From: a virus
IMG/VR virus record: IMGVR_UViG_3300046000_007143
Span: 1-60,786 of that record
DNA: 60,786 nucleotides
Strand: one strand, 5' to 3'
The notes beneath the pieces are model-generated. The model searched no databases. It was given only the letters and a program-made list of their open reading frames with translations, and had not been told where the DNA came from. Positions 17,506 through 41,074 of the stretch are shown piece by piece. The position numbers and the translations under genes are program-made. The first letter of the stretch is position 1. Each line of letters begins with the position of its first letter.

Positions 17506-17511
17506 CCTCGA

Positions 17512-20355: not shown

Positions 20356-20368
20356 CTCAACGCACGGG
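20356..20368 (-). promoter_or_regulatory. Late motif copy 1, before tailspike
   Basis: Sense sequence CCCGTGCGTTGAG, 30 nt before ATG 20326. One of eight copies in the late region; see copies at 29635, 32291, 34448, 36456, 37621, 38028 and 41062. Confidence 0.65.
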
Positions 20369-20369
20369 C

Positions 20370-20541
20370 TGAATGAGCAACGGGCGGCGCTGGTTTCCCC
20401 TCACCGCCCGTCCCGCTCTACCACTGGCGTACACGACAACCGAGGCTGTCGCGGTGGGATTCGAACCCACGACCGTCGTTGGGCCGAAGCCCGATCTTGT
20501 GCGAGGCCGGGCGCTACTCCGGCTTGATGGTTAGGACACCC
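20370..20541 (-). ncRNA. Structured intergenic RNA with tRNA-like elements
   Basis: The gap 20327-20648 has no gene. On the minus strand it shows a perfect tRNA T-arm, GTGGG-TTCGAAT-CCCAC (20454-20470), then CGCGACA pairing with TGTCGTG (20453-20447 with 20438-20432), a D-arm-like CAGTGGTAGAGC, and an 8-bp hairpin ACGGGCGG/CCGCCCGT (20380-20387, 20404-20411). No complete cloverleaf can be drawn. It may be a decayed or rearranged tRNA or a leader RNA of the tailspike gene. Confidence 0.4.
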
Positions 20542-20648
20542 AACCGCTACCGGCGTCCGCTCTCACCACCTCTGCTGTGCAACCAGCCGCGTGTCTGCTT
20601 TCCACGCCGCTCGCCCGCGCATTCCTACACCACCCGGTTACGACGCGG

Positions 20649-20825
20649 TTACCGCCTACGCAGCCACACCACCAGCGACAGCCCGACCAGCATCCTGGGC
20701 GACGCGAGGAACTGCCACCGCTCGGTCCAGAGCGACGCGACCGTGCCGGCGCCAATGGCAAGCGCGATGACGGCGGCGAATGCCACCCCCACCGTCGCCA
20801 GAAGCCATTTGCCAGCCCGGACCAT
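20649..20825 (-). CDS. Small membrane protein, holin candidate
   Basis: 58 residues; ATG 20825 overlaps the stop of the large internal virion gene. Residues 6-30 (WLLATVGVAFAAVIALAIGAG) are a clear membrane helix and 40-55 (ASPRMLVGLSLVVWL) a second shorter one; the end is RRR. Size, topology and charge suit a holin, but the rest of the lysis genes are at 39-41 kb. Could also be a virion membrane protein. Confidence 0.55.
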   Translation of the reverse strand: MVRAGKWLLATVGVAFAAVIALAIGAGTVASLWTERWQFLASPRMLVGLSLVVWLRRR

Positions 20826-23800
20826 CACTCGCCTGCCCTTGCCTCCTCGCGCCGCCGCACCTTGTCAGACGCCATCGCCTGCAGGTCGCTCGCGAACATC
20901 TCGGTCACCGCGGCCCGCGCCTCGTCGCGATAGGCGCTGACCACGTCCCGAATGTAGTCAGCCTTGCCGCCGTCCGGACCGTCGGTCAAGCCGAAGTAGA
21001 ACTCGCTGTCCGAGTGGCGACCCTCAGCGACGGCGTTCAGTTGCTCAAACGCAGGCGCACCGGCGAGCCGCATGAACTCGCTGTAGATGTCCGGCCGGTT
21101 CTTCAGCGACACCGTCTCGCCCATGTAGGAGATCGACCGGTTCGGCATGGCCACCGACACGCCGTTGTTCAGGATCTCAAGGTCGATCGCCGACCCGCCC
21201 TGCCCGCGCGACTGCAGTCCCAGGGTGTTGTACATCTGGTCGGACGCCGCCTCGGTGTAGTACCGGCGCTCACGGCCCCACAAATCGCGCTGCGGAGGCA
21301 GGTCGTCGGACAGGCCCGGCATCGTGTTCATCATCGCGGTGGCAATGTTGTGCGTCTCGCGCATGTACGGGTCATCGGCGCGACGCATCGTGCGGGCTGC
21401 GCTGCTGCCGGGGATCATGGCGGATGCGCGGGCCATCAGCAGCCGCTCGGCCTCGCCGTTGCTGCCGTCCAGCAGGGCGCTGGTCAGCTCGGTGATGCCG
21501 CTCAACATGGTCTTGTCGAAGAAGGCCTGGCCGACGGACGCGACGGCGTGCGCCATCACCTCGTCGATCTCGGTACGCCCCGCCTCATCCCAGTCGCCGT
21601 TCTTCATCAGGTCGGCCATGTCCGCCATCAGGCCCATCATCTGCCCCATCGGATCGGCGCGTTCGAAGCTGACCCAGCGGTTGCCGACGCGGATGCTGTA
21701 GGGCTGGAAGACGGACCCGCCGTATTCGTCCTGACGCTGCATGGCCTCACGCTGTGCACGGTTGCCCGGACCACGACCGGTGATCTCGCCGTCCATCGCC
21801 ATGCCGATATAGACCGACGTCAGCGCCGTACCGACCGCCATGCGCGCCTTGGCCGTCTCAGCCGCCGCACCGCCCTCAGCCAGCGCGTCGCGATACCGCT
21901 TCATCATCGGAGCCAGGGGCGAGTAGCGCATGCCCACGCTGACGAGGTTCGCGGGCGTGCGCAGGAACGGCATAACCATCGTGCCGATCGGGATCGGACC
22001 CGCGTTCTCGTCCATCATGCGGCGACCGGCGGAGGCCCATTTGTCGAAGCCGCCCGCGTTGGTGAAGGTCAGCTCGTGCATCTCCTTCTCCGCTGCCGCC
22101 ATCATGTCGTCGGTCGGGTTCTGGATCAGGTCGGCATATCGCGTGCGCGCGGCCTCGCCGGTCAGCCCCTCGGTCGTCACGCGGCGGAAGGCTTGAGCGT
22201 GCAGTTCGCCACGCGCCGCGACCGTCTTGAAGAAGTCATCGGTCAGCGAGTTGAAGTTCGAGGGCGCCTCGGCCAGCATCTGCACGACGTCGAGGAACCG
22301 GCCCAGCGGCGAGTCCTCGCTGACACGCCACGCAGCAGCCGACAGCGGGCGCCCGGCCTGGGACCCGGCCTCTTCACGCTCGGCACGCAGGCTCACGCCC
22401 GGAGGCACAGCATCGTCCAGACCGGGCGCCATGCCGCGGAACAGGCCGTCACGACGCAGCCGCTCACCCGCGTTCGCGCCGATCTCCTGAGCCGCCTGCA
22501 TGGGGTTCATGCGGAAGGTGTCTCGCAGGGCCTGCTGGTAGCCGTGAACCATTGCCGACGCCTCGCCAGCCTTCATGGTCGCAGCGCCACCGAACGCACT
22601 GGCCAGACGGGGCGACACGACGCGCGTGGCGTAGTTCAGGCCCAGCATCATGCCGTTGCCGGCGACGTTGATGATCGGCGTGCCGAGACCTGACAGCAGG
22701 CTGTTGGTGTACACCAGCTTGACGATCTCGCGGGTACGCGCCATCGCGCCGCCACGAACCATCTGGTTGAGCGCGTTGTCGCCCTTCTCGGCGGCCTGCC
22801 GGATGCGACGTGCCAGTTCCTGCGCGCTGTTCGCGCCGCCCGCGTCAGCGATCAGGCTGTCGACCTGACGCAGGTAGGTGGCGGGAGCGTCGGCCGGGAT
22901 CTTGAAGGCATTGAGCGCACGACCGGCTTCAGCGCGAGCGCCCATCAGCTCGTTCTGGATGGCGGAGTGCGTGGCCGTGGCGCGACGGAAGGCGAACTGG
23001 TTGGCCAGCGTCGGCTCGGCCTCGACCTTGCGCGCCAGTTCCAGCAGCTTCGTCGCCGACGAGTTCAGCGCGAGCCTGTAGGCCAGCGCCGTCTCGGCAT
23101 TGACCGCACCGCCCGGCTGACGAGCGCCCATCGCCGACACCCAGTCGACACCGTTCGCGGCCTCGCGCGTCTGGTCCCAGGATCGCGTGCCCCGGCGAGC
23201 CAGGTCGACGTCCTTGGCCATGCGGTCAGCCATGCCGACGATGACCGCCTGCACGTCCTCGGGCGTGTTGATGCGCGCGAGGTTGATGTCGAACACGTTG
23301 TCGGTGGCTTCGGCGCGCGCGACCGTGGCCGACATATCAGCCGGAAGGCGGCGCGTCGTGCGCTCGGCTGCGTCGATCTTCTTCTCAAACGGCGTGATGA
23401 CGGGGGCCTCAGCCTCCTTCGCCACCCGGAACCGCGGCCCCTCGGGATTGCCCAGTGCCTCACGGACGGCGTCTTGGACCTCGACGCCGCGCGCGGCGGC
23501 CTCATCCATCGCCAGCGTCGGGTCGATCTGCAGGCCTTCGGCGCGGGCGGCGTCACGAGCAGCAGTTCGGACCTCACGCGCGGCCTTCAGTCGGCGGATG
23601 CCCACACCCAATACATCGACCGCGCCGCCAAGGATGCCGCCCTCAATCGCGTTCTTGAACCGGCCCTCGACCTCGCCGTCCTCGGGATCAGCGGCCAGCC
23701 AGTTCAGCGCCGGCGCCAGCGCCTCGGGGGCGTGTTCGGCCAGCAGGTTGGACAGGCGCTCCTCTTGCCCGTCGAACGCGGTGAAGTCAGCCAGCGCGCC

Positions 23801-24802
23801 CTGCACAAGGTTCTTGCCGATACGGCCAGCCGTGCCCGCCGTCTTCCAGCCCTGCAGCGCACGCCCGCCACCGACAAAGCCGGTCGCGAACTGGGACACA
23901 CCCTCAATCAGGCGACCGGTGACGGACTCGGGGCGCTCGTTCTCGCGCACGGGCGCGGTGATCTGCGCCATGCCGAGACGCTGAAGCAGCGTCAGGTCGC
24001 CGCCCTGAGCCGCGCGCATGCGGCGCTCGGCGTCGTTCTGCGTGGTCAGGCGGATGCTCATGGGGGTAGAGGCGTCGCCGTCGATGCCCTCCCACATCAC
24101 CGTCCCAGGGACGTATTTCTCGATCCAGTCGCCGGTCTCGTCGATCAGGTCCATCGTGGCGTTGAAGCCGCGCTTGACGCCCGACAGGACAGCCGTGCCA
24201 CCCTCGAGGAACACGCCCTTGGCCACGTCACCGGCCACAGCGCCAGCGCCGTCCAGCACGGCCTGCGGCACCATGCCGGCCTGAATGATCTGGGCCTCTT
24301 CCTGATCCAGCGCCAGCGACTCACGCGCGGCCTGACGTTCGGCGTAGGCGTTGTCGAGGGGTGCGGGGATAGAGGGGGCGTCGAGGTTGCGGAACCAGCG
24401 GTTCGTCGAGGCGTCGAACTGGTAGCCCTGAGCCGCCAGCGATTCCGGTGTGTCACCGGGCGCCAAGTCCTGCACGTTGACCGAACGGTAGCCGGGCTGC
24501 TCGCCGCCGGGGGCGGCCGGATCGCGCGGACGACCGTCGACGGCGACGTGGATGTGGTCACCCTCGTTGATGAGCTCAACCGTGTTCGCGCCACTCGAGC
24601 GCAGACGCGCCTCAAGCTGGCCCATGCTCTCGCCCTCGGCAGGGATGAGGTCAACGGCTCGCGGGTCATCCGGCGACCCGCGCGTGTGGAAGCTGCCGGG
24701 CACACCGCCGACGCGGCGGTTATGCTCGGGCGTGCGGAAGGTGTTGGTCGGCTGTGCACCGGGGACTGCGCCCAGAACGTCGCGGACTGTGTCGATGGCC
24801 AT
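20825..24802 (-). CDS. Large internal virion protein (T7 gp16-like) with M15 peptidase domain
   Basis: 1325 residues. The order and size of the three genes before the tail proteins match T7 gp14-gp15-gp16. The N-terminal 90 residues are not a lytic transglycosylase, as in T7 gp16, but an M15/hedgehog-type DD-peptidase: H39 in GSFHTRGSPDD, D51 in RAVDLIP, and H83-x-H85 in EGDHIHVAVDG. A LysM-like stretch (GDTPESLAAQGYQFD) follows. The remainder is long and helical with short apolar segments. It is probably ejected to cut the cell wall and line the DNA channel. Confidence 0.8.
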   Translation of the reverse strand: MAIDTVRDVLGAVPGAQPTNTFRTPEHNRRVGGVPGSFHTRGSPDDPRAVDLIPAEGESMGQLEARLRSSGANTVELINEGDHIHVAVDGRPRDPAAPGGEQPGYRSVNVQDLAPGDTPESLAAQGYQFDASTNRWFRNLDAPSIPAPLDNAYAERQAARESLALDQEEAQIIQAGMVPQAVLDGAGAVAGDVAKGVFLEGGTAVLSGVKRGFNATMDLIDETGDWIEKYVPGTVMWEGIDGDASTPMSIRLTTQNDAERRMRAAQGGDLTLLQRLGMAQITAPVRENERPESVTGRLIEGVSQFATGFVGGGRALQGWKTAGTAGRIGKNLVQGALADFTAFDGQEERLSNLLAEHAPEALAPALNWLAADPEDGEVEGRFKNAIEGGILGGAVDVLGVGIRRLKAAREVRTAARDAARAEGLQIDPTLAMDEAAARGVEVQDAVREALGNPEGPRFRVAKEAEAPVITPFEKKIDAAERTTRRLPADMSATVARAEATDNVFDINLARINTPEDVQAVIVGMADRMAKDVDLARRGTRSWDQTREAANGVDWVSAMGARQPGGAVNAETALAYRLALNSSATKLLELARKVEAEPTLANQFAFRRATATHSAIQNELMGARAEAGRALNAFKIPADAPATYLRQVDSLIADAGGANSAQELARRIRQAAEKGDNALNQMVRGGAMARTREIVKLVYTNSLLSGLGTPIINVAGNGMMLGLNYATRVVSPRLASAFGGAATMKAGEASAMVHGYQQALRDTFRMNPMQAAQEIGANAGERLRRDGLFRGMAPGLDDAVPPGVSLRAEREEAGSQAGRPLSAAAWRVSEDSPLGRFLDVVQMLAEAPSNFNSLTDDFFKTVAARGELHAQAFRRVTTEGLTGEAARTRYADLIQNPTDDMMAAAEKEMHELTFTNAGGFDKWASAGRRMMDENAGPIPIGTMVMPFLRTPANLVSVGMRYSPLAPMMKRYRDALAEGGAAAETAKARMAVGTALTSVYIGMAMDGEITGRGPGNRAQREAMQRQDEYGGSVFQPYSIRVGNRWVSFERADPMGQMMGLMADMADLMKNGDWDEAGRTEIDEVMAHAVASVGQAFFDKTMLSGITELTSALLDGSNGEAERLLMARASAMIPGSSAARTMRRADDPYMRETHNIATAMMNTMPGLSDDLPPQRDLWGRERRYYTEAASDQMYNTLGLQSRGQGGSAIDLEILNNGVSVAMPNRSISYMGETVSLKNRPDIYSEFMRLAGAPAFEQLNAVAEGRHSDSEFYFGLTDGPDGGKADYIRDVVSAYRDEARAAVTEMFASDLQAMASDKVRRREEARAGE

Positions 24803-26449: not shown

Positions 26450-26896
26450 CTATCGGCCTCCGCCGCCGGAGCCAGCCGACACGGCGTTCGAGATGCCGTC
26501 GACCAGCGTGCCTCCCGCCTGCAGCCAACCCGACAAGTTGGCGTTGGACGCAGCACGGCGGCGCATCGTGGCGGAGGTGCGCAGCGAGTAGGCCTGATTT
26601 TTGAAGCCCAGGTTCTCGGCGCCCTCGTCGACCACCGACTGACGACGCAGTTCTCGCTCGACCGCAATGCCCGACGGGCTGTCCAGCGACAGACCCTTGG
26701 CCGAGCGGTTGGCGGTCCACGCAGCGATGCCGGCACGCAGTTCCTCGCGACGCCGGGCCGAAGCCTGCGTGGCCTGCAGGTCAACGTCGCCCGCCTGACG
26801 CTTCAGCATCAGGCTTTCCATGCCGAGTTGCTTGGCTTGAGCGCGGCCCTGACCGACCTGCATGATCGCGGAGAAGAGTGGGGTCGACTGGCCCAT
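26450..26896 (-). CDS. Internal virion protein (T7 gp14-like)
   Basis: 148 residues. Opens MGQSTPLFSAIMQVGQ and continues as helix with QRxxAxxLGMESLMLKRQA, then RRREELRAG and a Gly/Ser-rich end. The length and place between tail tube B and the gp15-like gene fit a T7 gp14 equivalent. Overlaps the tail gene stop by 1 nt. Confidence 0.6.
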   Translation of the reverse strand: MGQSTPLFSAIMQVGQGRAQAKQLGMESLMLKRQAGDVDLQATQASARRREELRAGIAAWTANRSAKGLSLDSPSGIAVERELRRQSVVDEGAENLGFKNQAYSLRTSATMRRRAASNANLSGWLQAGGTLVDGISNAVSAGSGGGGR

Positions 26897-28998: not shown

Positions 28999-29605
28999 GA
29001 AGCGCCGTCCGCGACGGACGCGAGCCGCGCCACGCCTCGGCCAGCGGGACGAACTCAATGCTGACGCCGGGCTCCTGGCGCTTGTCGCGGATGATCGCGT
29101 CGCGCATCAGCACGTCGGCGTCACGGGTCTTCAGGCGCGCGTCCTGCGGCTTGTCGCACAGGGCCTCGAGGAACAGCGCCTGCATGCGCACGACGACGGC
29201 CTCGGAGAAGTCGCCGGGCCACATCGACTCATCAGCGCGCACAGTGGCCACGACCTGCAGATCGCTGTTCGAGCGCGTCAGAACCCGGCCGCTCTCGATC
29301 GCGTACTCGCCGGCACGCAGCCGAACACCGTCCTGCATGATGTAGCGGACGTTCATGACCGTCGAAGGCCACACGAACGCGTGCAGGTACGGCCCCAGCT
29401 CAACCTCGCCCTGATAGGTCAGGTCCAGCGTCTGCTTGGCGAAGGTCCATGCATGGCGCGCGAAGAAGCTGCGGACGATGCCCTCGTAGTTCGACGACGC
29501 GACACGGGCACCGGACGAGTCATCGTCCAGCGACGTGATCTCCTCCTCGCCAATGCGGTGAAGGGCGGCCTGAACGACCTCGATGGGGGCGGAGAAGGCA
29601 GGCAT
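28991..29605 (-). CDS. Tail tubular protein A-like (T7 gp11-like)
   Basis: 204 residues. APIEVVQAALHRIGEEEITSLDDD then SNYEGIVRSFFARHAWTFAKQ is the gp11/head-tail adaptor pattern. It begins a new transcription block: an intrinsic terminator (29649-29682) and motif copy 2 lie upstream, and no Shine-Dalgarno sequence precedes ATG 29605. Confidence 0.78.
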   Translation of the reverse strand: MPAFSAPIEVVQAALHRIGEEEITSLDDDSSGARVASSNYEGIVRSFFARHAWTFAKQTLDLTYQGEVELGPYLHAFVWPSTVMNVRYIMQDGVRLRAGEYAIESGRVLTRSNSDLQVVATVRADESMWPGDFSEAVVVRMQALFLEALCDKPQDARLKTRDADVLMRDAIIRDKRQEPGVSIEFVPLAEAWRGSRPSRTALRG

Positions 29606-29634
29606 AGGCGCAGGTTGCGCGCGGGCGGTGGTGG

Positions 29635-29647
29635 CTCAACGCACGGG
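29635..29647 (-). promoter_or_regulatory. Late motif copy 2
   Basis: CCCGTGCGTTGAG, 30 nt before ATG 29605 and immediately after the T-run of the terminator at 29649-29682. A stop followed at once by this motif is what a re-initiating promoter would look like. Confidence 0.68.
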
Positions 29648-29648
29648 C

Positions 29649-29682: not shown

Positions 29683-29707
29683 AGTTCAGCCCCACCCGGA
29701 GAGAGTG

Positions 29708-30097: not shown

Positions 30098-30107
30098 GCG
30101 TCAGGCC

Positions 30108-31500: not shown

Positions 31501-31515
31501 GTTTGGTAGATCCCC

Positions 31516-32259
31516 TTATCCGGCCTTGATGGCGCGGGCGGCTGCGAGACGTTGTTCGACAGGAAGTTCGGCGATGGTCTCGTCGTAGGACGAGGCGCCG
31601 GCGGCGGGCGGTGCAGCCGAGATGGCAGCGCCGGTTAGTTTCGAGACGAGGGCTTCGAGCGCGATGACCGCGTCGGCGGAGCGCGTCGACTGGCGAAGGG
31701 CATTGGCCGCGTCAGCGCCCACGGCGGCGACGAGGGACGAGTGAATGGCGCCGGTGCGCTTGACGTGCTCTGAGCCCAGCTTGGCCTGCTCGGCAACGAC
31801 ATGTGCCTGCTCAGCCTTGGCGGCCTCAACCTCCAGCTTGGTGAAGGCGGCCAGAAGCTTCTCGACGCCGGCCTGCGGGACGCCGCATTCGTGCAACACC
31901 GGGAGGACAGCCTGCGCCAGCGGGTCGGTCGGGTCGAACTGGACGGGCTTGCCGTCAAGGCCGACGATGTCCTCGCCCAGCTTGAGCTCGTACTTGTCAG
32001 CGGTTTCGGGCAGGCCTTCGCGGCGCGCCACGTCGGCGGCCTCAAGCTCAGCAAGGCGCGAGAAGGCCTCGGGCTTGATGGCGTTGGTGTCGGCGTCCCA
32101 GTAGGTTTCAGGCAGGGCGTCCGGGCGCTGAGGCGCGGCGGCTTCAGCCGGAGCGGCGGCCATCAGGCTCGCGTCGACGGCAGGAGACACCGGCACGCTC
32201 GTCGCGGCGGTGGTCTCGGTCGTCTCGGTCGTCTCGGTAGTGGCGGTTGTGTCCGTCAT
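31516..32259 (-). CDS. Scaffolding protein
   Basis: 247 residues from ATG 32259; upstream TTG 32295 would add an unlikely 12-residue leader inside motif copy 3. Thr/Glu/Ala-rich low-complexity N-terminus, ELKLGEDIVGLDGKPVQFDP in the middle, and long charged helices afterwards, the usual scaffold composition. Lies between portal and capsid genes. No protease is encoded nearby, so it may leave the prohead intact. Confidence 0.72.
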   Translation of the reverse strand: MTDTTATTETTETTETTAATSVPVSPAVDASLMAAAPAEAAAPQRPDALPETYWDADTNAIKPEAFSRLAELEAADVARREGLPETADKYELKLGEDIVGLDGKPVQFDPTDPLAQAVLPVLHECGVPQAGVEKLLAAFTKLEVEAAKAEQAHVVAEQAKLGSEHVKRTGAIHSSLVAAVGADAANALRQSTRSADAVIALEALVSKLTGAAISAAPPAAGASSYDETIAELPVEQRLAAARAIKAG

Positions 32260-32290
32260 GGCCGGGACCGTGCGGTCGAGCGGTTCGAGC

Positions 32291-32303
32291 TTCAACGCAC
32301 GGG
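32291..32303 (-). promoter_or_regulatory. Late motif copy 3, before scaffold gene
   Basis: CCCGTGCGTTGAA (last base differs), 32 nt before ATG 32259. No Shine-Dalgarno lies between it and the start. Confidence 0.65.
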
Positions 32304-32305
32304 CC

Positions 32306-32566
32306 TCATGATGCGGGCACGCCCTTGGCGATCAGCTTCTGGACCAGACGCCGCGCGCCCTCAGCGTCACGCAGGGCCGCCTCGCTGCATCCGAGAGGCG
32401 TTGCTGCACTCACCTCGTCCTGCAGCCAGGCGAGGATGCGCTGGCCGTCGACGCTCGCCAGCATGTGCCGGCGGATGACGGACTCGATGGTTTCCTCTTG
32501 CGAGGCGATCGACGCCGGCTGCGCACCAGAGGCGCGGAGCCGGTCAAACCTACGCGGCCCCGACAT
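32306..32566 (-). CDS. Small protein between portal and scaffold
   Basis: 86 residues, overlapping the portal stop by 17 nt. Helical: EETIESVIRRHMLASVDGQRILAWLQDEV. Ends just before motif copy 3. Function unknown; T7-like phages often carry small assembly genes here. Confidence 0.6.
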   Translation of the reverse strand: MSGPRRFDRLRASGAQPASIASQEETIESVIRRHMLASVDGQRILAWLQDEVSAATPLGCSEAALRDAEGARRLVQKLIAKGVPAS

Positions 32567-34073
32567 CGCCCATGCCTCCGCCTTGCGCCATCGCAGCCGC
32601 GGCCTGCTCGGCCATGATCTGCTCGTCGGACTTCATCACGATGTGCCGCTCCTTGGCCGTCGCGATCAGGTTCTCCATCGTGCCCTTGGCGTCGATCGGA
32701 ACGCCGACCTGCAGGGCAGCGCCGATGCTGGCGCCGAACGACAGCACCTGACCGGTCAGGTTCATGTCCTCCAGATCCTTGGCCTTCGACAGCGGGCTGA
32801 TCGGTCGGCAGTTGACGACCTTGCCGCCCTTCAGCTTGACCTCTGGCAGCACGCCGCGCTTGGCGAGAATCCACGCCACGCGCTCGATGATGGGCAGAAC
32901 CCACTCGCGGACGCAGCGGTCGCGAGGCAGTTCCTTGCGGCGCGTGTTCCACGCCTTCTCGTCCATCCACTGACCGAGCGTCGGCGGGGTATCGCCGGGC
33001 TGCTCGGGGCGGTCCTGGTAGCAGGCGCGCTTGATACCCTTGCGCATCTCGTCGGCGGCGAAAAACGAGGCATCGAACCGCACGTCTGGCAGGAAGGCCT
33101 CGGGCGCCTTGGATTGCGGCGCGCGAGCGAAGCCCTTGCCGGGCTCCATGCCGCCGTCGAAATTGGCGAGGCCGTCTTCCTCGTAGGAGAACGCCGGGTC
33201 GATCGTGCGGCCCAGCCCCTTCAGGTTCAGGTACGCAAGCTCATCCAGCACGCGCGCGCGCGGCGTCGCCTTCTTGAACGGCCCCGGACCCCAAGCGGAA
33301 TCGGCCTGCTGGCGGAACCGGCAGGTGATGATCGGGCACGAGCCGGCGCCCTCATAGGTGAACTTCACCCGCTCCTTGTCGTCGACGAAGATGCGGTAGT
33401 TCCAACGCTCGACGCCGGGGGTCGACCAGTCGCGGTCGCAGCCCTCGACGACGCTCTGCTTCTTGTCCTTGTTGCCGCCGCGGAACGGAGGGAAGTACAT
33501 TCCCATCGACGCGCCCCAGAGCATGTTCTGCTCTGCCTGGGTCAGCTTCATCTCGCGCCACTTGCCGGTCACGGACCCATCGGGGCCACGCTCCATCAGC
33601 AGGTCGGGGATCTCGATCGGCTGGAAGTGCAGCGGGTTCAGCGGACCCATGTCCGACAGGGCGACGGCCATCGCCGACACGCCCCAGTACGCGAAGCACT
33701 CCTGCGCGGCGTCCCAGTAGTTTGACCGTTCCAGTTCCGCAAACACGGCGTCACCGATCGCGGCGAGCTGCGGCGCAATCTCGCGCTGCTGGCCCTCCGA
33801 CAGGTCGTCCGCCGGCTCGAACATCACCCACCGCTCGTGGCGAGGCGTGAAGGTCGAGATCATGTCGGACGCAAAGTCCTCGGCGACGATCTCCAGCTCG
33901 TTGTCGAACTGGTCGTCCTGCTCCTCAATGCGAAGCGAGGTGTCGGATCGCTCGTTGCATCGACGATAGGTCGGCAGGGCGAGCCGAAGCGTCTCGTCAA
34001 TCCATGTGGCGTGGCGCGCCTTGTCCTGCTTCGCCGCAGCGATACGGGCGAGGATCTGCTTGGGGGTCGTCAT
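32550..34073 (-). CDS. Portal (head-tail connector) protein
   Basis: 507 residues. LARIAAAKQDKARHATWIDETLRLALP, then IVAEDFASDMISTFTPRHERWVMFEP and YRIFVDDKERVKF match the head-to-tail connector family (pfam Head-tail_con) of podoviruses. The C-terminal part includes VLSFGASIGAALQVGVPIDAKG and a Met/Gly-rich end. It forms the portal vertex through which TerL packs DNA. Confidence 0.85.
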   Translation of the reverse strand: MTTPKQILARIAAAKQDKARHATWIDETLRLALPTYRRCNERSDTSLRIEEQDDQFDNELEIVAEDFASDMISTFTPRHERWVMFEPADDLSEGQQREIAPQLAAIGDAVFAELERSNYWDAAQECFAYWGVSAMAVALSDMGPLNPLHFQPIEIPDLLMERGPDGSVTGKWREMKLTQAEQNMLWGASMGMYFPPFRGGNKDKKQSVVEGCDRDWSTPGVERWNYRIFVDDKERVKFTYEGAGSCPIITCRFRQQADSAWGPGPFKKATPRARVLDELAYLNLKGLGRTIDPAFSYEEDGLANFDGGMEPGKGFARAPQSKAPEAFLPDVRFDASFFAADEMRKGIKRACYQDRPEQPGDTPPTLGQWMDEKAWNTRRKELPRDRCVREWVLPIIERVAWILAKRGVLPEVKLKGGKVVNCRPISPLSKAKDLEDMNLTGQVLSFGASIGAALQVGVPIDAKGTMENLIATAKERHIVMKSDEQIMAEQAAAAMAQGGGMGDVGAA

Positions 34074-34381
34074 CAGTACAGGACCGCGAGGCTGCGATCG
34101 AAGCCGCTGCCGCGGGAAGACCCACCCGACCCGGTCGCTCCGCTGAAGACAGAGCCCATGCCGCCAGACACGCCGGCGCCCGGACTTGTCGGGCCGCCCG
34201 CGATCGGAACAGACCCCCCGCCGCCCAGCGAGCCGAATCGGCGGTTACGCCGGCCTGTTGCGCCCAGCAGCCAGGCTTGGGTCTCTTCCGTGCGTGCGTT
34301 CTCAGCCCGACGCTCCTCACGCTCGCGCGCGGCTTTCGTGGCCGGATCTTCTTCGGGAAGCGTGACCTTCGGAGTCCTCAT
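34073..34381 (-). CDS. Glycine-rich structural-region protein
   Basis: 102 residues from ATG 34381; overlaps the portal start by 1 nt. First 45 residues charged helix (REREERRAENARTEETQAW), then a Gly/Ser/Pro repeat region (GSLGGGG, GGPTSPGAG, ATGSGGSSRGSG). Similar small Gly-rich proteins lie just before the portal in many T7-like phages. Function unknown. Confidence 0.6.
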   Translation of the reverse strand: MRTPKVTLPEEDPATKAAREREERRAENARTEETQAWLLGATGRRNRRFGSLGGGGSVPIAGGPTSPGAGVSGGMGSVFSGATGSGGSSRGSGFDRSLAVLY

Positions 34382-34803
34382 GCCTGCCTGCTCTCGAACG
34401 CGGGTCGCGCACCTTGAGCAAGCAGATCGCGGTAGAAGGCCTCCGGTCTCAACGCACGGGACCGCGCGCCGACGAGATGGGCGACAGCCGGCGTGCACCA
34501 GAACCCGACGCGGAGCGCCGGATCGCCCGGCTCCTCGGTCGGCTCGAACTCGAGGATGCGGCGGTTGTCCGGCAGGGCCGCGACCCACGCGTCCATCTGG
34601 CTTGGCGTCATGACCCGGATCAGGGTCCGGCGCGTGGTCACATCGTACAGAATCCACGCCGCCTGATCGGCGCAGTAGCCGAACGCGGCGACATGGCGGA
34701 ATCCATCGCGGCAAAGGCGGGACCACCAGTACTGCTGCCCGTCGTTGTAGAAGGCGACGAACCAGTTGGGCGGCATACCTGAGAGCGCATCGACCTCTGT
34801 CAT
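34378..34803 (-). CDS. Conserved phage protein between TerL and portal
   Basis: 141 residues. Many aromatic residues (NWFVAFYNDGQQYWWSRLC, FWCTPAVAHLVG) and MTPSQMDAWVAALP. Overlaps the TerL stop by 4 nt. No named family. A conserved gene of this kind is common between terminase and portal in alphaproteobacterial podoviruses, a memory-based statement that should be checked. Confidence 0.6.
   Translation of the reverse strand: MTEVDALSGMPPNWFVAFYNDGQQYWWSRLCRDGFRHVAAFGYCADQAAWILYDVTTRRTLIRVMTPSQMDAWVAALPDNRRILEFEPTEEPGDPALRVGFWCTPAVAHLVGARSRALRPEAFYRDLLAQGARPAFESRQA
34448..34460 (-). promoter_or_regulatory. Late motif copy 4, inside coding sequence
   Basis: Perfect CCCGTGCGTTGAG but within the 3' end of the gene 34378-34803, 67 nt before ATG 34381. 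The only copy inside a reading frame. Confidence 0.55.
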
Positions 34804-36425
34804 CGACGCGCCCGGAACAGCGGAGCGCGCGCCCCGCGGTCAAACACCCGCGTTTGCACCTTGGTCTGGACGGCAGCGACGTTGCGGCCGGCGCCGAACA
34901 GCAGGTTGCCGCCCTCGCCCATGCCCAGCACCATGTACCCCAGAGCCTCGCACGGGTGGCTGTACTGGTTCTTGACGATGTCGCCCGACGTGAACTGGCC
35001 GGCGCTCGTGTTCGTGACCTTGAACTGGTAGCCGCCGCCCAGCCCCTGCTCGAGCATCCGGCACTTAGGGTCGATCAGGAACGCCTGGTAGCCGTCGACC
35101 TGACGCGTCAGGATGCTGTCAACGACCTCCTTGCGACCACCCTTGCCGACGAAGCGGTTGGCGCCAGGGGCACGCATGACCGGCATGCCGTTCTGGCGGA
35201 AGATGTCGAAGGCCGTCTTTTCCTCGGCCTGACCGCGGATGTCGCCGCCGGGGTCGCCGAAGAACTTGACCTTGTTCGGGTCGAGGCCGGGGAAGCGGCG
35301 CAGGATCTCGGCCTTGACGAACGGAGCGAACGTCACGGCGCCCACGTCCTCGGCATAGAGCTCAGCCAGCACGAAGATCCGGCCCCGCACGGTCTGGCCG
35401 AACACGGCGGCCGGCGTCAGGCCGAAGTCGAGGCCGCAGTACAGGTCGAGGTCGGGGCTGAACTTGAGCGAGTTGGAGGCAACGTGGCTGTTGCGCTCGT
35501 TCGCCGACCGGAACAGCGGGTGCACCGCCTTGCCCTTCATCTGGCTGGCGGCGATGTTCCGGCAGTTGGCGTCGATCCACTGGCGCGTGACGCCGTGGAT
35601 CTTCTTCGGATAGTAGTCGGGCCGCAGCCAGCGCAGGTTCTCAGCGCCGGGATTGACGCAATACTCGACCTCGTCGCCGGGGTTCAGCGCCTCAAGGCCC
35701 GAGGCCTTCAAGCCCTCGTCCAGCACGAGCAGCGCCGGTGGTTGTACGAACAGGCACCAGTCCGGCGGACGGCGGTGGCGCTGCACGTCATCCGGCGTGA
35801 AGTGGTCCGGCACGGGCGCCTTGCCGAACATGATGGGCGCCCAGTGCAGGCTCTCCGGCGCGTTCATGTCGGCGATGCCGCCGGACCAGTTGCAGCCGCC
35901 ATTCTTGACCGATGGATAGCGGCCGCAACGCGACAGCCCCTCGGTCACCAGCATCAGGTTGATGTACTGGAGCTCGTTGAAATAGATCCCGGTGAGCTGC
36001 AGCGAGCGCAGCTTCTTGACGTCGTCGTCCTTGTCCAGCGCGAGGAAGATGAACTCGGCTTCGATGTCGCCATAGCGCATGTGGTAGGTGAACGGCGGCG
36101 ACCACGACATCTCGCCGAACCCGCCCTGTGCCTCGGACCCCTCCGGAAACAAGTTCACGAACGAGGGGATCGTCGTCGTCTTCAGTTCAGGGAAGGTCGA
36201 GCGGACGATCGCGAAGCGCGCGCGTCGGACGCCGTCTCGCTGCGCCGGTTGCTGGCTGGCGTGACGGAACAGGCGCATGATCGCCGCGTCCGTCTTTCCC
36301 GAGCCGATCGGCCCCTGAATGATGTCGAACTCACTGTCCGCGAGCAGGAACGCCGACAGGATCCGGCCGTCAGGCTCAAAGCGGATGGGCTCGCGGGGTG
36401 GTGTGGATGCTGCCTTGCGGGCCAT
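34800..36425 (-). CDS. terL: Terminase large subunit
   Basis: 541 residues. Walker A GPIGSGKT at 38-45, adenine-binding and Walker B-type region IEAEFIFLALDKDDD then TGIYFNEL, and a C-terminal RNase H-like nuclease with LDLYCGLDFGLTPAAVFG (first acidic residue) and FGDPGGD. Packs and cuts concatemeric DNA. Unusually, the TerS-like gene is 6.4 kb upstream, separated by lysis and other genes. Confidence 0.92.
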   Translation of the reverse strand: MARKAASTPPREPIRFEPDGRILSAFLLADSEFDIIQGPIGSGKTDAAIMRLFRHASQQPAQRDGVRRARFAIVRSTFPELKTTTIPSFVNLFPEGSEAQGGFGEMSWSPPFTYHMRYGDIEAEFIFLALDKDDDVKKLRSLQLTGIYFNELQYINLMLVTEGLSRCGRYPSVKNGGCNWSGGIADMNAPESLHWAPIMFGKAPVPDHFTPDDVQRHRRPPDWCLFVQPPALLVLDEGLKASGLEALNPGDEVEYCVNPGAENLRWLRPDYYPKKIHGVTRQWIDANCRNIAASQMKGKAVHPLFRSANERNSHVASNSLKFSPDLDLYCGLDFGLTPAAVFGQTVRGRIFVLAELYAEDVGAVTFAPFVKAEILRRFPGLDPNKVKFFGDPGGDIRGQAEEKTAFDIFRQNGMPVMRAPGANRFVGKGGRKEVVDSILTRQVDGYQAFLIDPKCRMLEQGLGGGYQFKVTNTSAGQFTSGDIVKNQYSHPCEALGYMVLGMGEGGNLLFGAGRNVAAVQTKVQTRVFDRGARAPLFRARR

Positions 36426-36455
36426 GCGCGGAGAAGGCGCGGAGGCAGGGCCACC

Positions 36456-36468
36456 CTCAACGCACCGG
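36456..36468 (-). promoter_or_regulatory. Late motif copy 5, before TerL
   Basis: CCGGTGCGTTGAG (one change), 31 nt before ATG 36425; no Shine-Dalgarno sequence in between. Confidence 0.62.
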
Positions 36469-36470
36469 CG

Positions 36471-37313
36471 CTACGATAGCCACGTCCGAAAGACGAGCTC
36501 AGACGTGCCCACCGCTCCCTTGCCGGCAGCGATGGTGGGGGTGACGACGTCAAACGACCCTCCAGGCGTGAGCCCTTCGATGATCTCGGTGCTCGCGTCG
36601 GCGAAGATCAAGCGCGCCTTGGTACAGGCAGCGGGCACCGTCTCGGTCATGGTCGGCAAGCCGCGGGTGGCTTCGGTTCCGGCCGTTCGGATGTAGGATG
36701 TCGGCGTTAGTCCCGCCTCAAACTGAGCACCCCAAATCAGGAACGAACTCGCAGGGGCGGCGCCCGAGGCTATGTAGATCAGAACGGCCAGCGCACCGCC
36801 GGCCGACGCCGGCTTCGGAAGAGCGATGCGGGTCCATGTGTCTGTCGGCGTGAAGTCGACCCCGACCCCGTCGACCAACAACGACTTCACGGACTGGGCT
36901 GTGCCATCAGATTTCACCCAGACGCTCAGCACCAGGTCGCCAGCGGGCGCAGCCGCGTAGGCGAATATCTGCGGGAAGGCCGCAACGCCAGATTCCCACT
37001 TCACGGCGGTTAGCGTTCCATCGGGAGCCTCGCCCGCGGCGGGCGTGATCGTCACCGACGATTTGGTCCACGCGGCATCGGCTAGGTTCTCGGATTGCGT
37101 CAGCAGGTTCGTTGCGGCAGGCTCAAGCAGTAGCCCGCGATCGGTCCGCTGAGGAACATTCGCCGCAAAGAACGAAATTCCTCCAGCTAGGGTCTTGCCG
37201 GTCGCCTGGCCGAGGCGGCCATAGGTCGACCCCGCCGGCATCCCAGCGCGAAAATCACTGCGCAGCGGGGTGCTGGACGGTGAAAAAACCCCGAGGGCCA
37301 ACCCGATGTTCAT
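36471..37313 (-). CDS. Carbohydrate-binding-like virion protein
   Basis: 280 residues. LLLEPAATNLLTQSENLADAAWTKS followed by PDGTLTAVKW, VLSVWVKSDG and FLIWGAQFEAGLTPTSYI is the concanavalin/carbohydrate-binding-module pattern seen in many phage appendage proteins. It may be a second receptor-binding or capsid-surface protein. Ends right at motif copy 5; overlaps the next gene by 1 nt. Confidence 0.68.
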   Translation of the reverse strand: MNIGLALGVFSPSSTPLRSDFRAGMPAGSTYGRLGQATGKTLAGGISFFAANVPQRTDRGLLLEPAATNLLTQSENLADAAWTKSSVTITPAAGEAPDGTLTAVKWESGVAAFPQIFAYAAAPAGDLVLSVWVKSDGTAQSVKSLLVDGVGVDFTPTDTWTRIALPKPASAGGALAVLIYIASGAAPASSFLIWGAQFEAGLTPTSYIRTAGTEATRGLPTMTETVPAACTKARLIFADASTEIIEGLTPGGSFDVVTPTIAAGKGAVGTSELVFRTWLS

Positions 37314-37573
37314 TAGTAAAGCGCAACCATATTTGTCGCGGTCGTGCTCGTGGCGTTAACGCGCTGCGCGTTGACCGGAAGAATGGTGCCGGCAAGTGCG
37401 TTCTTGAAGGTGATGGCGACGTCGCCGGGCGTCACCACGACCACATCGCCACCGACACCAACATAGATTCCGCGACACACGGGAAAATAAGCCGTGTCAG
37501 AGGGGGTGATCGCGACAGCGTCGTCAGCCGGTCCGCTATCACCGGCAGCGTGAGGATTACGCGCAACGGCCAT
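37313..37573 (-). CDS. Small conserved virion-associated protein
   Basis: 86 residues with a perfect AGGAGG. Pattern CRGIYVGVGGDVVVVTPGD, then VAITFKNALAGTILPVNAQRVNATSTTA is a recurrent small beta-sandwich phage protein placed near tail or appendage genes. Precise role unknown. Confidence 0.65.
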   Translation of the reverse strand: MAVARNPHAAGDSGPADDAVAITPSDTAYFPVCRGIYVGVGGDVVVVTPGDVAITFKNALAGTILPVNAQRVNATSTTATNMVALY

Positions 37574-37620
37574 GTCTGTGCCTCCTGTTCTTGAGCACCA
37601 CGCCGCACCCGGCCCCTGCC

Positions 37621-37633
37621 CTCAACGCACCGT
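37621..37633 (-). promoter_or_regulatory. Late motif copy 6
   Basis: GACGGTGCGTTGAG-type (core GGTGCGTTGAG), 48 nt before ATG 37573, and touching the stop of 37633-37986. Confidence 0.58.
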
Positions 37634-37986
37634 CAGTGCACCCAGCCGTTCAGGTGCGCCTTCTCATGCCGCAGCAGCTTGCCGCAGTACGCGTCCTGAT
37701 CGGGCGTGCAGTGCGGCATCACGATCACGCGCCGCGGCATGAAGGTGCAGGCCATGACGATATAGCGCGTCGGGGGCGGCTGGCCTCCGCAGGCAATGTG
37801 GACCTGATACGGCGTGCCGACGATCACGACGAACGGCGCGCCGGGGATGCGGTCGTATTCAGCCGGCGGCGCCTCGACCGCCTCGGGCGACGGGACGAAC
37901 GTCCGGACTTCCTGCATGGAGGCGGAGGGGCCTGACATGGCGGTTATGAGCGTGACGACCGAAGCCGCGGCTATGGTTTTCAGCAT
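37633..37986 (-). CDS. Secreted small protein with HExxH zinc motif
   Basis: 117 residues, AGGAGG before ATG 37986. Signal peptide-like start (MLKTIAAASVVTLITAMSG). Four cysteines (CGG, CTF, C..D.YC). Ends LLRHEKAHLNGWVH, where HEKAH (107-111) is a metallopeptidase zinc site. Could be an exported minimal zinc peptidase acting in the periplasm during lysis, or a degenerate relative. Proteolytic activity is inferred from the motif alone. Confidence 0.62.
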   Translation of the reverse strand: MLKTIAAASVVTLITAMSGPSASMQEVRTFVPSPEAVEAPPAEYDRIPGAPFVVIVGTPYQVHIACGGQPPPTRYIVMACTFMPRRVIVMPHCTPDQDAYCGKLLRHEKAHLNGWVH

Positions 37987-38027
37987 GCGCCCCTCCTGTG
38001 CGGAGTGGGCGGTCTGAGCGGGTTGCG

Positions 38028-38040
38028 CTCAACGCACGGG
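38028..38040 (-). promoter_or_regulatory. Late motif copy 7
   Basis: CCCGTGCGTTGAG, 42 nt before ATG 37986, just after the stop of 38042-38281. Confidence 0.62.
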
Positions 38041-38041
38041 G

Positions 38042-38281
38042 CTAGTCGTCCATTGCGGGGCAGCCCGCGAGAATCCACGCCTTGCCTTGGTCAATCAGCC
38101 AGTTCGTGTCGGATGCGCCGTGACTGGCGCCCGCATAGATGTCGCCGTTCTCGTCATAGCCAATGACGACCACATCGGTCAGCCCGGCCGCTCGTGCGCC
38201 CGCCAGCACGCGATTCACCGGCACGACCGCGCCATTGCCACAGCCGTCAACCAGCTTCAGGTGCACCACGTTCTCCATCAC
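38042..38281 (-). CDS. Hypothetical phage protein
   Basis: 79 residues. NVVHLKLVDGCGN..., PVNRVLAGARAAGLTDVVVIGYDENGDIYAGASHG is a common small-protein layout in phages of this host group. Start overlaps the phosphoesterase stop by 4 nt. Function unknown. Confidence 0.65.
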   Translation of the reverse strand: MMENVVHLKLVDGCGNGAVVPVNRVLAGARAAGLTDVVVIGYDENGDIYAGASHGASDTNWLIDQGKAWILAGCPAMDD

Positions 38282-39477
38282 GCCGCCTCAAGCATCTCAG
38301 GCGTCACCGTGACCGAGCCGACCTGTCCCCAGACCGAGTGGTAGGTGTAGGCCGTAGCCTGGCGCTCCGACATCCAGCCTCCGCGGGCCGCGTAGGCGTC
38401 GCGGGCCGACAGGGTCGAGTGCTGGACGACCTTCATCCCCGAGTGCTCCTTGATTTCCTCGTGGTGACGGTGACCACAGTGGGCGAACCGCTTGGTCGTG
38501 GCGCCCCACTCGCGCGGGTACTGGGCCGCGAACAGCAGGGGCAGGCCCTCGTTCTTCTTGAGGTGGCCGTGGTGGAAGGCCAGCATCGTCGCGCCGTGGA
38601 CGTGGACGTAGTAGGGCAGCTCGCTGTCGATCACCCGGACCCGCGGCTCATTCTCGTACAGGGCCGCGAACATGATGCGCAGCCAGACGCTCGAGGCGAG
38701 GTCGTGGTTGCCCTCGGCCATGACAACGAACACGGTCTGGTGCCGGGCCAGCGCCATGTCGATCACGCGCCGGAGAATGCGGATCGCCGTGCGGACCATC
38801 TTCGAAAACCGGCCGTCGGCGTCGAGGATGTGGCCGTGCCCCGGCGTCACCGGCAGCAGGCCGTCCCAGTGCAGGAAGTCGCCGAGCTGGTTGACGACGC
38901 AGGTCGTGGCGGACGGCGATCGCTCGACCATCTGCTCGAACGCGCCGATCAGGGTTTGCTCCGCGATCGCCAGGTCCCAGTCGGCGCCGCCCTCCTTGCG
39001 CCACGCCATCATGCCGACGTGGCAGTCGGTCAGGGTGAAGACGTTGCACAGGTGGTCGGCGGTTCCCGCCGGCGCCGGGAACGGCGACATCCGCGGCACG
39101 TCCTCGCTGATCGCGACGAACGCCTCCCGCAGCATCTCCGCCCGGCGCTCCTCGTCGGCGCTGGTCTTGTCCCACGACAGCACCTCGACCCGCTGGCCCG
39201 TGACCGGATCCAGTTTGCGAAGGACCGAGCGGCCCTTGAGCTTGAAGCCGTCCGGCACCTGCTCGGTCATGCCGAACTCGGGCGCATGACCCTGGGCGGC
39301 AGCCTTGGCGCGGATCTGCGCCAGCAGGCGCCGCACGGTGCGCTCGTCCCTTTGCAGATGACGGGCTGCGGCGGCGACATTGCCGATGTCGATGATCGCG
39401 GAGATAGTCTCGCGCTGGACCTCAGTCTCGCACCAGCGGAGAAGTTCTGTCGTCGGGGCGACGGTCAAGCCGACCAC
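38278..39477 (-). CDS. Calcineurin-like metallophosphoesterase with N-terminal HTH
   Basis: About 399 residues from GTG 39477; TTG 39468, overlapping the o-spanin stop, or ATG 39552 are alternatives. NVAAAARHLQRDERTVRRLLAQIR near the start is a helix-turn-helix. The metallophosphoesterase motifs follow: LTDCHVGMMAW, NQLGDFLHWDG, VMAEGNHDLAS, LAFHHGHLKK and HCGHRHHEEI. It sits between lysis and packaging genes and could act on DNA ends or on nucleotides. HTH plus phosphoesterase recurs in phages, but its substrate is unknown. Confidence 0.78.
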   Translation of the reverse strand: MVGLTVAPTTELLRWCETEVQRETISAIIDIGNVAAAARHLQRDERTVRRLLAQIRAKAAAQGHAPEFGMTEQVPDGFKLKGRSVLRKLDPVTGQRVEVLSWDKTSADEERRAEMLREAFVAISEDVPRMSPFPAPAGTADHLCNVFTLTDCHVGMMAWRKEGGADWDLAIAEQTLIGAFEQMVERSPSATTCVVNQLGDFLHWDGLLPVTPGHGHILDADGRFSKMVRTAIRILRRVIDMALARHQTVFVVMAEGNHDLASSVWLRIMFAALYENEPRVRVIDSELPYYVHVHGATMLAFHHGHLKKNEGLPLLFAAQYPREWGATTKRFAHCGHRHHEEIKEHSGMKVVQHSTLSARDAYAARGGWMSERQATAYTYHSVWGQVGSVTVTPEMLEAA

Positions 39478-39707
39478 CCGCAAAGCCGCTTGCCGACAGC
39501 GTTGTGGGCCTTCACCTCCAGCACCGTCTCCGGCGTATCGCGCGTCGACCATGTGATCGGGCGGGCGATGTCGCAGAACGACTGAGCGCCCGGCAGCGGA
39601 TCAGTCGCGGCGGAACCCGTCGTCGCGCATGAGCTCAGCAGGATCGGCATTGCGCAGATCAGAGCGCACGCGCTCCGCATCCGCGGTCCGTTCGGCGCGT
39701 CCGGCAT
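39465..39707 (-). CDS. o-spanin (Rz1-like lipoprotein)
   Basis: Up to 80 residues; the start may be the internal Met (MRSACALIC, residue 9). Lipobox LLSSC near residue 27, then SFCDIARPITWSTRDTPETV and HNAVGKRLCGW, the typical phage Rz1-like ending. Its 5' end overlaps the i-spanin gene in another frame, the hallmark of Rz/Rz1 pairs. Outer-membrane partner in the last step of lysis. Confidence 0.75.
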   Translation of the reverse strand: MPDAPNGPRMRSACALICAMPILLSSCATTGSAATDPLPGAQSFCDIARPITWSTRDTPETVLEVKAHNAVGKRLCGWSA

Positions 39708-39903
39708 CGGTTCGTTCCTTCTCGATGGTGGCTGTCCGACCGTCTGCGCGGCCTTTGCGGTAGAGTCCGAGGGTCGCCAGCGCGATCAGGCCGGCGGCGA
39801 CACCGCGCCAACCGAAGAACCGGTGCGCGAAAAACAGGAGGGCGACCGCGAGCGCGATGCCGAAGACGAGTTGGGCGGTCTGGAAGAGGTCGGCGACCAT
39901 CAA
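39601..39903 (-). CDS. i-spanin (Rz-like) candidate
   Basis: 100 residues. Membrane segments at about 9-26 (AQLVFGIALAVALLFFAH) and 31-47 (WRGVAAGLIALATLGLY), then a charged coiled coil (TIEKERTDAGRAERTADAERVRSDL). One membrane segment is usual for Rz; two is odd. The overlap with the lipoprotein gene supports the call. Confidence 0.65.
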   Translation of the reverse strand: MMVADLFQTAQLVFGIALAVALLFFAHRFFGWRGVAAGLIALATLGLYRKGRADGRTATIEKERTDAGRAERTADAERVRSDLRNADPAELMRDDGFRRD

Positions 39904-40751
39904 ACCCCCCCCACCCGCTTGATCTGCACCCGGCCGGTCAGCACGAGGAACACGCCGACCGCGACCAGCGCGAAGGCCGCAAACGCCCAGGGACTTGCGA
40001 TGCCCTGCAGGACAGGCTGCGCGAACGCGGCGACACCGCCGATGCCGCCGAGCCCGGCGAGGACACCCCCCACAGCCGTCTTGTCCGTCTTCAGGTCAGC
40101 GCCGTCCGGCTTCGCGGCCTCGGCCACAGCAGCGGGCGCCGGGAACGGGCGGGCCTGTTCGGCGCGCGCGGCCTTGATGCTGTCGAGGAAGGCCGTGTGA
40201 TAGCCCGCGATCAGGCTGGCCTTGTCGGTGCCGTTGACGATGCGACGGGCGCCTACAGGGTCGTCGGTGGTGGCGTTGAAGAAGTCTTCGAGCGAGTGCT
40301 TGGTGAAGTCGCCGACGCCGGTCTCGCCGTTCGTCATCCCCTCGATCAGGATGCGGACGCTCACCTGCAGGTCCAGCGCCAGATCGGGATTGCCGACCAG
40401 ATCCAGACCCAGCACCTCGCCCATTTTGCGGTAGTTCGACAGCCACGTCAGTTGCACATGGCCCCGGCCGTAATAGACCCTGCCGTCGTACTCCCGTGCA
40501 TACCGGCGGCCAGCAACCGCACGGCGCGCTCCCGCGTCCGTTCGCGCGAAGCCCTCGCGCACCGGCTGCATCTTGCCGCCCGTCTCGTGGAAGGCGGTGG
40601 CGAGGATGTAGGCGAGATGGCGGTCGTCGGTGATGTCGCGGGCCGCGGCGATAATCGCCTCGCAGCCCTGCACCTGCGCCTGCGTCAGACGACCACCGAA
40701 CGGGGCGCGGCGGGCGTAGGCGAAGAAGGTGGGGAGATGGAGGGCGGTCAT
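39900..40751 (-). CDS. Endolysin: GH19-like hydrolase with C-terminal membrane domain
   Basis: 283 residues. ATAFHETGGKMQPVREG contains the catalytic Glu (56) and YYGRGHVQLTWLSNYRKMG is the second signature of chitinase-class-I-like muramidases. After a Pro/Ala linker, the last 65 residues hold two likely membrane helices (GVLAGLGGIGGVAAFAQPVL and WAFAAFALVAVGVFLVL). That joins a cell-wall enzyme to a holin-like or anchoring domain in one chain. Overlaps both neighbours by 4 nt. Confidence 0.82.
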   Translation of the reverse strand: MTALHLPTFFAYARRAPFGGRLTQAQVQGCEAIIAAARDITDDRHLAYILATAFHETGGKMQPVREGFARTDAGARRAVAGRRYAREYDGRVYYGRGHVQLTWLSNYRKMGEVLGLDLVGNPDLALDLQVSVRILIEGMTNGETGVGDFTKHSLEDFFNATTDDPVGARRIVNGTDKASLIAGYHTAFLDSIKAARAEQARPFPAPAAVAEAAKPDGADLKTDKTAVGGVLAGLGGIGGVAAFAQPVLQGIASPWAFAAFALVAVGVFLVLTGRVQIKRVGGV

Positions 40752-40981
40752 TCCGACACCCTCCGACGCGCGGCCGGCCTCAGCGCAGACGCCAGATCCT
40801 GAATGCTCTGGGTCAGGAACTTCACCTGCTCCTGCAGGCGGATGACTTCGTCGCGCGTCGCGTCGTGTCCGGCCTCTTTCGCCTTCAGCGCATTGACCCG
40901 ACCCTCAAGCCGGACCAGCCATGTGACGAACCCGATCGCGGCGAGCGCCAGGGTGATGTAGTGGCCGGGTTCGAGGGTCAC
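40748..40981 (-). CDS. Small membrane/coiled-coil protein of the lysis cassette
   Basis: 77 residues from GTG 40981, whose GTGA overlap with a 17-codon leader frame supports it. One membrane helix (YITLALAAIGFVTWLV) near the N-terminus followed by a coiled coil (DEVIRLQEQVKFLTQSIQDLAS). Holin, anti-holin or spanin-like roles are all possible. Confidence 0.62.
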   Translation of the reverse strand: MTLEPGHYITLALAAIGFVTWLVRLEGRVNALKAKEAGHDATRDEVIRLQEQVKFLTQSIQDLASALRPAARRRVSE

Positions 40982-41031
40982 GAGCGAACCCCCAGACCAC
41001 CCCAACCTTCGACGTTCGCGCGCGTTTTCAT
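40978..41031 (-). CDS. 17-codon leader frame before the lysis cassette
   Basis: ATG 41031 to TGA 40978 encodes MKTRANVEGWGGLGVRS. It lies 31 nt after motif copy 8, the same distance as other late starts, and its stop overlaps the GTG at 40981. It may serve only to deliver ribosomes to the next gene. Confidence 0.4.
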   Translation of the reverse strand: MKTRANVEGWGGLGVRS

Positions 41032-41061
41032 CCCCGCACCACGCCGGAGCCCACCCCTCGC

Positions 41062-41074
41062 CTCAACGCACGGG
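41062..41074 (-). promoter_or_regulatory. Late motif copy 8, before lysis cassette
   Basis: CCCGTGCGTTGAG directly after the stop of 41076-41825, 31 nt before ATG 41031. Confidence 0.65.

Follow-up and report, generated by a model that had tools for sequence, protein, structure and literature searches.

The middle promoters of phage T4 are among the closest described systems to the elements analysed here. In these promoters a phage element, the MotA box, replaces the -35 element and the sigma70 -10 is retained, and this sigma appropriation requires a small phage DNA-binding protein; the MotA box is asymmetric, contains TGC, has its centre at -30 and lies 12 ± 1 bp upstream of a strong TATAAT (PMC2988021). 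In the Caulobacterales, the Caulobacter GTA promoter depends on GafY/GafZ, a phage-derived activator that directs the RpoD holoenzyme to late-type genes, with GafY binding far upstream, at -123 to -113, and needing IHF (PMC11150451). The start-associated sequences (SAS) of the cluster K mycobacteriophages are 13-bp asymmetric repeats placed before many genes, in gene orientation, and rare in the host; they lie 3–7 bp from the start codon, contain AGGAG and occupy the position of a ribosome-binding site (PMC3203893). Finally, Caulobacter crescentus has 375 leaderless mRNAs, which are translated no less well than those with a leader; these come from host genes, and the study that reports them says nothing on phage promoters (PMC4117421).

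Here we have analysed a stretch of viral DNA of 60,786 nucleotides (the window) in which eight copies of a 13-mer, CCCGTGCGTTGAG, accompany late genes. These repeats are, very probably, late promoters: they would be the -35 boxes of promoters driving the virion genes in a temperate, T7-like podovirus that infects alphaproteobacteria. The proposed layout is GTGCGTTGAG, 17/18 nt, a NANNNT-like -10, 6/7 nt and the start site, in which the -10 would be read by RNA polymerase carrying a sigma70-type factor, most likely the host RpoD, and the -35 box by a DNA-binding protein that the phage encodes, most likely an XRE-type HTH protein; we infer the start sites, the use of RpoD and the identity of the factor from the sequence. 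Since a phage protein would read the -35 box, the late promoters would stay silent until that protein is produced. As in the T4 middle promoters, a phage element takes the place of the -35 and the sigma70 -10 stays (here as a sequence pattern only), the box is asymmetric and contains TGC, and a small phage DNA-binding protein is involved, which here is a candidate only. However, the box of this phage spans about -39 to -30 (the A of ATG being +1) and stands 17/18 bp, not 12 ± 1 bp, from a weak, GC-rich -10, the genes that it precedes are late genes with mostly leaderless mRNAs (as predicted), and no MotA or AsiA homologues were found among the scanned ORFs. Because position, spacing and factor differ, we do not file these late promoters under the T4 middle promoters. 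The GTA system is similar in that a phage-derived activator works with RpoD in this bacterial order, whereas in our case the box itself forms the -35 and occurs at eight promoters of one phage. In contrast to the SAS, our repeat lies 29–31 nt or more from the start, has no AGGAG, and most of its genes have no Shine-Dalgarno (SD) sequence. We found no relevant description of the motif string, or of such promoters, in the open-access literature.

Two related phages lie in the window: A (1 to about 18.5 kb) is represented by its early region and integrase, and B, which looks complete, comes after it (about 18.5–60.8 kb). Phage B encodes T7-like capsid, connector and tail proteins, TerL, an integrase, a primase, a helicase and Cas4-like and Sak4-like proteins, the Sak4 match itself being in phage A, with a homologue in B. 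The early regions (1-18545 and 43476-60782) are related and lie head to tail, their integrases are 93% identical, and the stretches beyond the two integrases are homologous as well (17452-17720 and 60515-60782, 91%); the partial A followed by B is either an arrangement like that of tandem prophages sharing a site or a join made in the assembly. Two other genes deserve mention: one for a 2OG-Fe(II) oxygenase-like protein (17415-18542, plus strand), which adjoins the integrase at the end of phage A, and one for a 1325-aa virion protein (20825-24802, minus strand) that has an N-terminal M15 peptidase domain and sits in the place of an internal core protein. The host is probably Brevundimonas or a relative of it, because the relatives of the phage include a contig (L029) from a Brevundimonas MAG, with 87% identity in TerL.

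The preliminary description of this DNA had listed copies of the repeat at 20356, 29635, 32291, 34448, 36456, 37621, 38028 and 41062, all in sense orientation, and all eight are there, on the minus strand, which is the sense strand of the late genes. Five match CCCGTGCGTTGAG without mismatch (20356, 29635, 34448, 38028 and 41062), two have one mismatch (32291 and 36456) and one has two (37621). Seven start in a gap, on the stop of the gene before them or just beyond it, only the 34448 copy being intragenic. With up to 2 mismatches the 13-mer matches 12 times, against 3.7 expected, and we therefore take the weak matches elsewhere (3731, 45388, 49333 and 52358) as noise. The claim that the repetition is not due to chance holds for the core: in phage B the exact core GTGCGTTGAG is found 7 times in sense and 0 times in antisense orientation, compared with about 0.04 copies expected (0.04–0.07, order-2 Markov model), and the reversed core, used as a control, has 0 copies.

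The core does not stand alone. A second element, overlooked in the first reading, lies 17–18 nt downstream: in a comparison of 58 non-redundant sites with the exact core, taken from the window and its relatives, a second conserved region was present 27–33 nt after the core start. A-11 and T-7 are the -10 bases that matter most to sigma70. Numbering from the start codon, both were present in 19/19 sites in which the ATG is at 29 nt; with the ATG at 30 nt, T-7 was present in 17/17 and A-11 in only 3/17; and with the ATG at 31 nt, T-8 was present in 13/15. These sites are non-redundant by flank identity rather than independent events, and represent about seven orthologous promoter groups. Where sigma70-type promoters have a -35 element 16–18 bp upstream of the -10, the box is at 17/18 nt, and where they have a -10 hexamer at a fixed distance from the start, T-7 or T-8 is found in nearly all sites. 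In their sequence, the core, the spacer and the ATG look like a sigma70-type promoter whose predicted start site is on or next to the ATG. Two features count against a promoter: the -10 is very GC-rich outside A-11/T-7, and A-11 is rare in the 30-nt class. As to the five starts said to lie 30–32 nt downstream, the close spacing stands with slightly different values, since, counted from the last base of the motif, the ATG begins at 29 nt (20356, 29635), 30 nt (36456, 41062) or 31 nt (32291).

The predicted promoters, all on the minus strand, are arranged as follows. That of the tail-spike gene (20333-20368) has its -35 box at 20356-20368 (core GTGCGTTGAG at 20356-20365) and its -10, CAATCT, at 20333-20338, with the ATG at 20326 in the leaderless geometry (29 nt). 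The promoter of the tail tubular A-like gene (29612-29647; -35 box 29635-29647; -10 CAACCT at 29612-29617; ATG at 29605) directly follows a terminator, as had been noticed before: a hairpin of -21.2 kcal/mol, then T6, then one base and the repeat. Upstream of the gene at 31516-32259, the promoter (32267-32303) combines a -35 box at 32291-32303 (GTGCGTTGAA) with a -10 at 32267-32272 (CACGGT) and an ATG at 32259, 31 nt away. The terminase large subunit gene would be transcribed from 36432-36468 (-35 box 36456-36468; -10 CCTTCT at 36432-36437; ATG at 36425, 30 nt). Two promoters are predicted to give short SD-bearing leaders: 37597-37633 (-35 box 37621-37633; -10 CGTGGT at 37597-37602), with the ATG at 37573, and 38004-38040 (-35 box 38028-38040; -10 CCCACT at 38004-38009), with the ATG at 37986; their ATGs lie 47 nt and 41 nt, respectively, after the motif, each with AGGAGG. 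The promoter ahead of the lysis region (41038-41074; -35 box 41062-41074; -10 CGTGGT at 41038-41043) has an ATG at 41031, 30 nt downstream. Exactly at its predicted start site begins a short ORF of 17 codons, MKTRANVEGWGGLGVRS (40978-41031, minus strand). In the relatives, this spot holds ORFs of 11–25 codons that mostly begin M..RA, some of them overlapping the start of the next ORF; the ORF could possibly encode a leaderless leader peptide involved in translational coupling.

The spacing between box and ATG goes together with the presence of an SD sequence. With the ATG at 29–32 nt, an SD run of at least 4 was present in 0/45 non-redundant sites, versus 14/35 at other spacings, mostly those with the ATG at 41–53 nt. 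If the start codon lies 29–31 nt after the box, transcription would begin from or next to the ATG and give a leaderless mRNA, so that no SD would be needed; starts farther away, 41–53 nt after the box, should have one, on a short leader. The absence of SD sequences from several starts had been reported correctly, and the predicted leaderless mRNAs would explain it. We consider it highly likely that the late mRNAs are mostly leaderless, and such phage mRNAs are plausible in this host group because C. crescentus translates leaderless mRNAs well.

The copy at 34448 belongs to a promoter (34424-34460, minus strand; -35 box 34448-34460) that would lie inside the gene at 34378-34803. There the repeat reads CGT GCG TTG AGA, although TTG makes up 5.4% of the Leu codons of this phage, and AGA plus AGG 2.9% of its Arg codons. 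This copy appears to be under DNA-level selection, since near relatives keep the rare codons TTG-AGR (with one exception, TTG-CGA) while the neighbouring codons drift. Its probable target is a previously unlisted ORF of 102 aa (34073-34381, minus strand), which overlaps the end of 34378-34803, fills the gap before the connector gene and has its ATG 66 nt after the intragenic core; in relatives, an ATG 63–66 nt downstream of the intragenic copy likewise opens an ORF of about 100 codons. The intragenic promoter has a weak -10 (about 34424-34429) instead of a good one, which is a point against reading it as a promoter.

Upstream of the HTH gene, the first of the late block, lies GCGTTGGCGCGC (43871-43882, minus strand; also at 339-350 in phage A), which had been described as related to the repeat. 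It is present and is nearly invariant at this position in the relatives examined; its kinship with the repeat, as a promoter of the same class, was not borne out. By eye, neither the window nor the relatives have an A/T -10 at the right distance from it, and because this downstream geometry is missing we regard it as a different element, outside this promoter class, that may be an operator or a separate promoter of the HTH regulator gene.

How deeply is the repeat conserved? The relatives comprised 28 IMG/VR contigs, the Brevundimonas contig and phage Mwe-JY08 (TerL 38%). In de novo word counts, the same word came first in most near relatives, and it was the top or near-top 9-mer in B, G006, G008, G010, G011, G019 and Mwe-JY08, where the copies sit before late genes. 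Mwe-JY08 (L060, PP395640.1) is recorded as a Microcystis phage; it has 66% GC and promoters in common with alphaproteobacterial phages, and the recorded cyanobacterial host may be wrong. A scan with a TerL profile gave about 50 relatives with 37–44% identity, in which we counted 92 non-redundant GTGCGTTG sites, 86 of them on the late strand. At 29 of these sites an ATG is found at offset 39–42 from the core start, against 4.9 expected from other offsets, and 21/29 have the A..T -10, compared with 0–4 at shifted positions; the -10 was not used in selecting these sites, whereas a separate tabulation did select for it. The intragenic position is also kept in distant loci bearing GTGCGTTG. No box was detectable in G016, G017, G018, Hodr, G453 and several of L178-L231, so the promoter system is not universal at 30–44% TerL identity. 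A pattern scan of IMG/VR also returned roughly 90 contigs, about 60 of which have no homology to this phage and were taken as chance.

In other lineages the box changes as a whole. Its forms are GTGCGTTGAG, GTGCGTTGC/T, ATGCGTTGC, GTGCGGTGC and GTGCATTCC, with geometry and -10 unchanged. The prophage of a Caulobacteraceae genome (G307; TerL about 34%) has GTGCATTC 8 times in sense, 0 times in antisense orientation, and no GTGCGTTG; these sites precede the same genes (TerL, tubA, spike and others) at 29–31 nt, keep the A..T -10, and one of them is intragenic, as in the window, in the orthologue of 34378-34803. GTGCGGTG has 4–6 copies in L183, L207, L209, L213 and L182, which have at most one GTGCGTTG, and L214 has ATGCGTTG; at several GTGCGGTG/ATGCGTTG loci the box stands before the tubA-like gene, after a terminator. 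One change made at many sites argues for one trans-acting reader. In addition, the full box-to-ATG pattern was confined, in two Caulobacteraceae genomes, to a phage contig or prophage, and a 3.5 Mb MAG has only 3 core copies outside the phage contig, similar to the reversed control; the confinement of the full pattern argues that the reader is most likely phage-encoded. Of the functions proposed at the outset, a promoter for an unidentified factor is thus strongly supported by the -10 at fixed spacing, the trade-off between SD and spacing, the intragenic copy, the position after the terminator and the concerted switching. That these are late promoters with a reader that is phage-encoded or at least phage-specific is, to our mind, well founded and highly probable; that the reader is encoded by the phage itself is likely.

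Which protein would read the box? The leading candidate, somewhat better than an even bet, is the XRE-type HTH protein whose gene opens the late block (43354-43827, minus strand). Its match to HTH_31 (E 1e-4) is below the cut-off, its AlphaFold model is XRE-like but mediocre (pLDDT 67), and its best Foldseek matches in the PDB are XRE proteins, although weak (E >= 0.039). It is present in the near relatives covering this region, and G307 has a homologue with 31% identity; Mwe-JY08 has a weak HTH homologue ahead of its late genes (hhalign probability 64%, E 6.6e-5), and many distant phages encode an HTH protein upstream of TerL, on the late strand (with E from 6e-15 to 0.05, the least significant matches not being secure). 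A weak HTH match in Mae-JY09 was discarded, this being an unrelated siphovirus. The recognition helix did not sort cleanly with the -35 variants, Mwe-JY08 and the window having the same box and a different helix, and the lineages are too few to resolve an exact helix-to-box code. More tentatively, and with the odds slightly against it, one XRE-fold phage protein might replace the -35 recognition of host RpoD at all late promoters, protein and boxes having co-evolved into mutually exclusive specificities (GTGCGTTGAG, GTGCGTTGC, ATGCGTTGC, GTGCGGTGC, GTGCATTCC).

The strongest competing explanation keeps the late promoters and assigns the -35 box to a diverged phage sigma factor or to another small phage protein. 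The evidence for the promoters does not depend on which factor reads them, several small early proteins are conserved and lack annotation, and a protein whose DNA-binding domain resembles DnaA domain IV (48235-48846, minus strand; Bac_DnaA_C, E 3e-14) recalls regulators of the GafA/GafZ type. However, neither region 2 nor region 4 of Sigma70 was found in the window or in five relatives, in searches whose positive controls worked; the DnaA-like protein, detectable in some relatives only, was undetected in several that keep the box, and was rejected as the factor; and the HTH protein is the one DNA-binding protein that was found throughout the clade at the start of the late genes. We regard another phage factor as possible but rather unlikely. 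An alternative sigma factor or an activator of the host would also suit the sigma-like -35/-10 geometry; against it, host genomes have the full pattern only in a phage contig or prophage, and the box switches genome-wide between phages, even within the Caulobacteraceae, which leaves a host reader very improbable. The T7-like virion proteins might suggest a phage-encoded RNA polymerase of the T7 or N4 type, a reading with hardly any probability, since no RNA polymerase family was found among the scanned ORFs (the absence of an RNA_pol match is weak evidence, as the control set was silent) and two elements with a ±1 spacer are sigma-like, unlike the continuous promoters of the T7 type. Just as improbable is an RNA-level element of the 5' leader, a translation signal or RNA-processing site as proposed in the preliminary description, which the close and fixed distance to starts without SD might recall but which is disfavoured by the DNA-type -10 at fixed distance, by SD-bearing sites with the same box farther upstream, and by copies that lie within a gene or immediately behind a terminator.

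The predicted promoters extend a known kind, the activator-dependent phage late promoters, and provide a predicted late-promoter code for widespread, almost uncultured temperate podoviruses of alphaproteobacteria, a group with no recognised gene for an RNA polymerase or a sigma factor, for which a testable regulator can now be named. Their terminase and tail proteins are predicted to be made from leaderless mRNAs, a kind that Caulobacter translates efficiently. The switching of the box between lineages represents a natural experiment in which a regulator and all of its sites would have changed together and, if true, the co-evolution of XRE protein and box would have generated, in nature, a series of mutually orthogonal late promoters whose mRNAs are leaderless.
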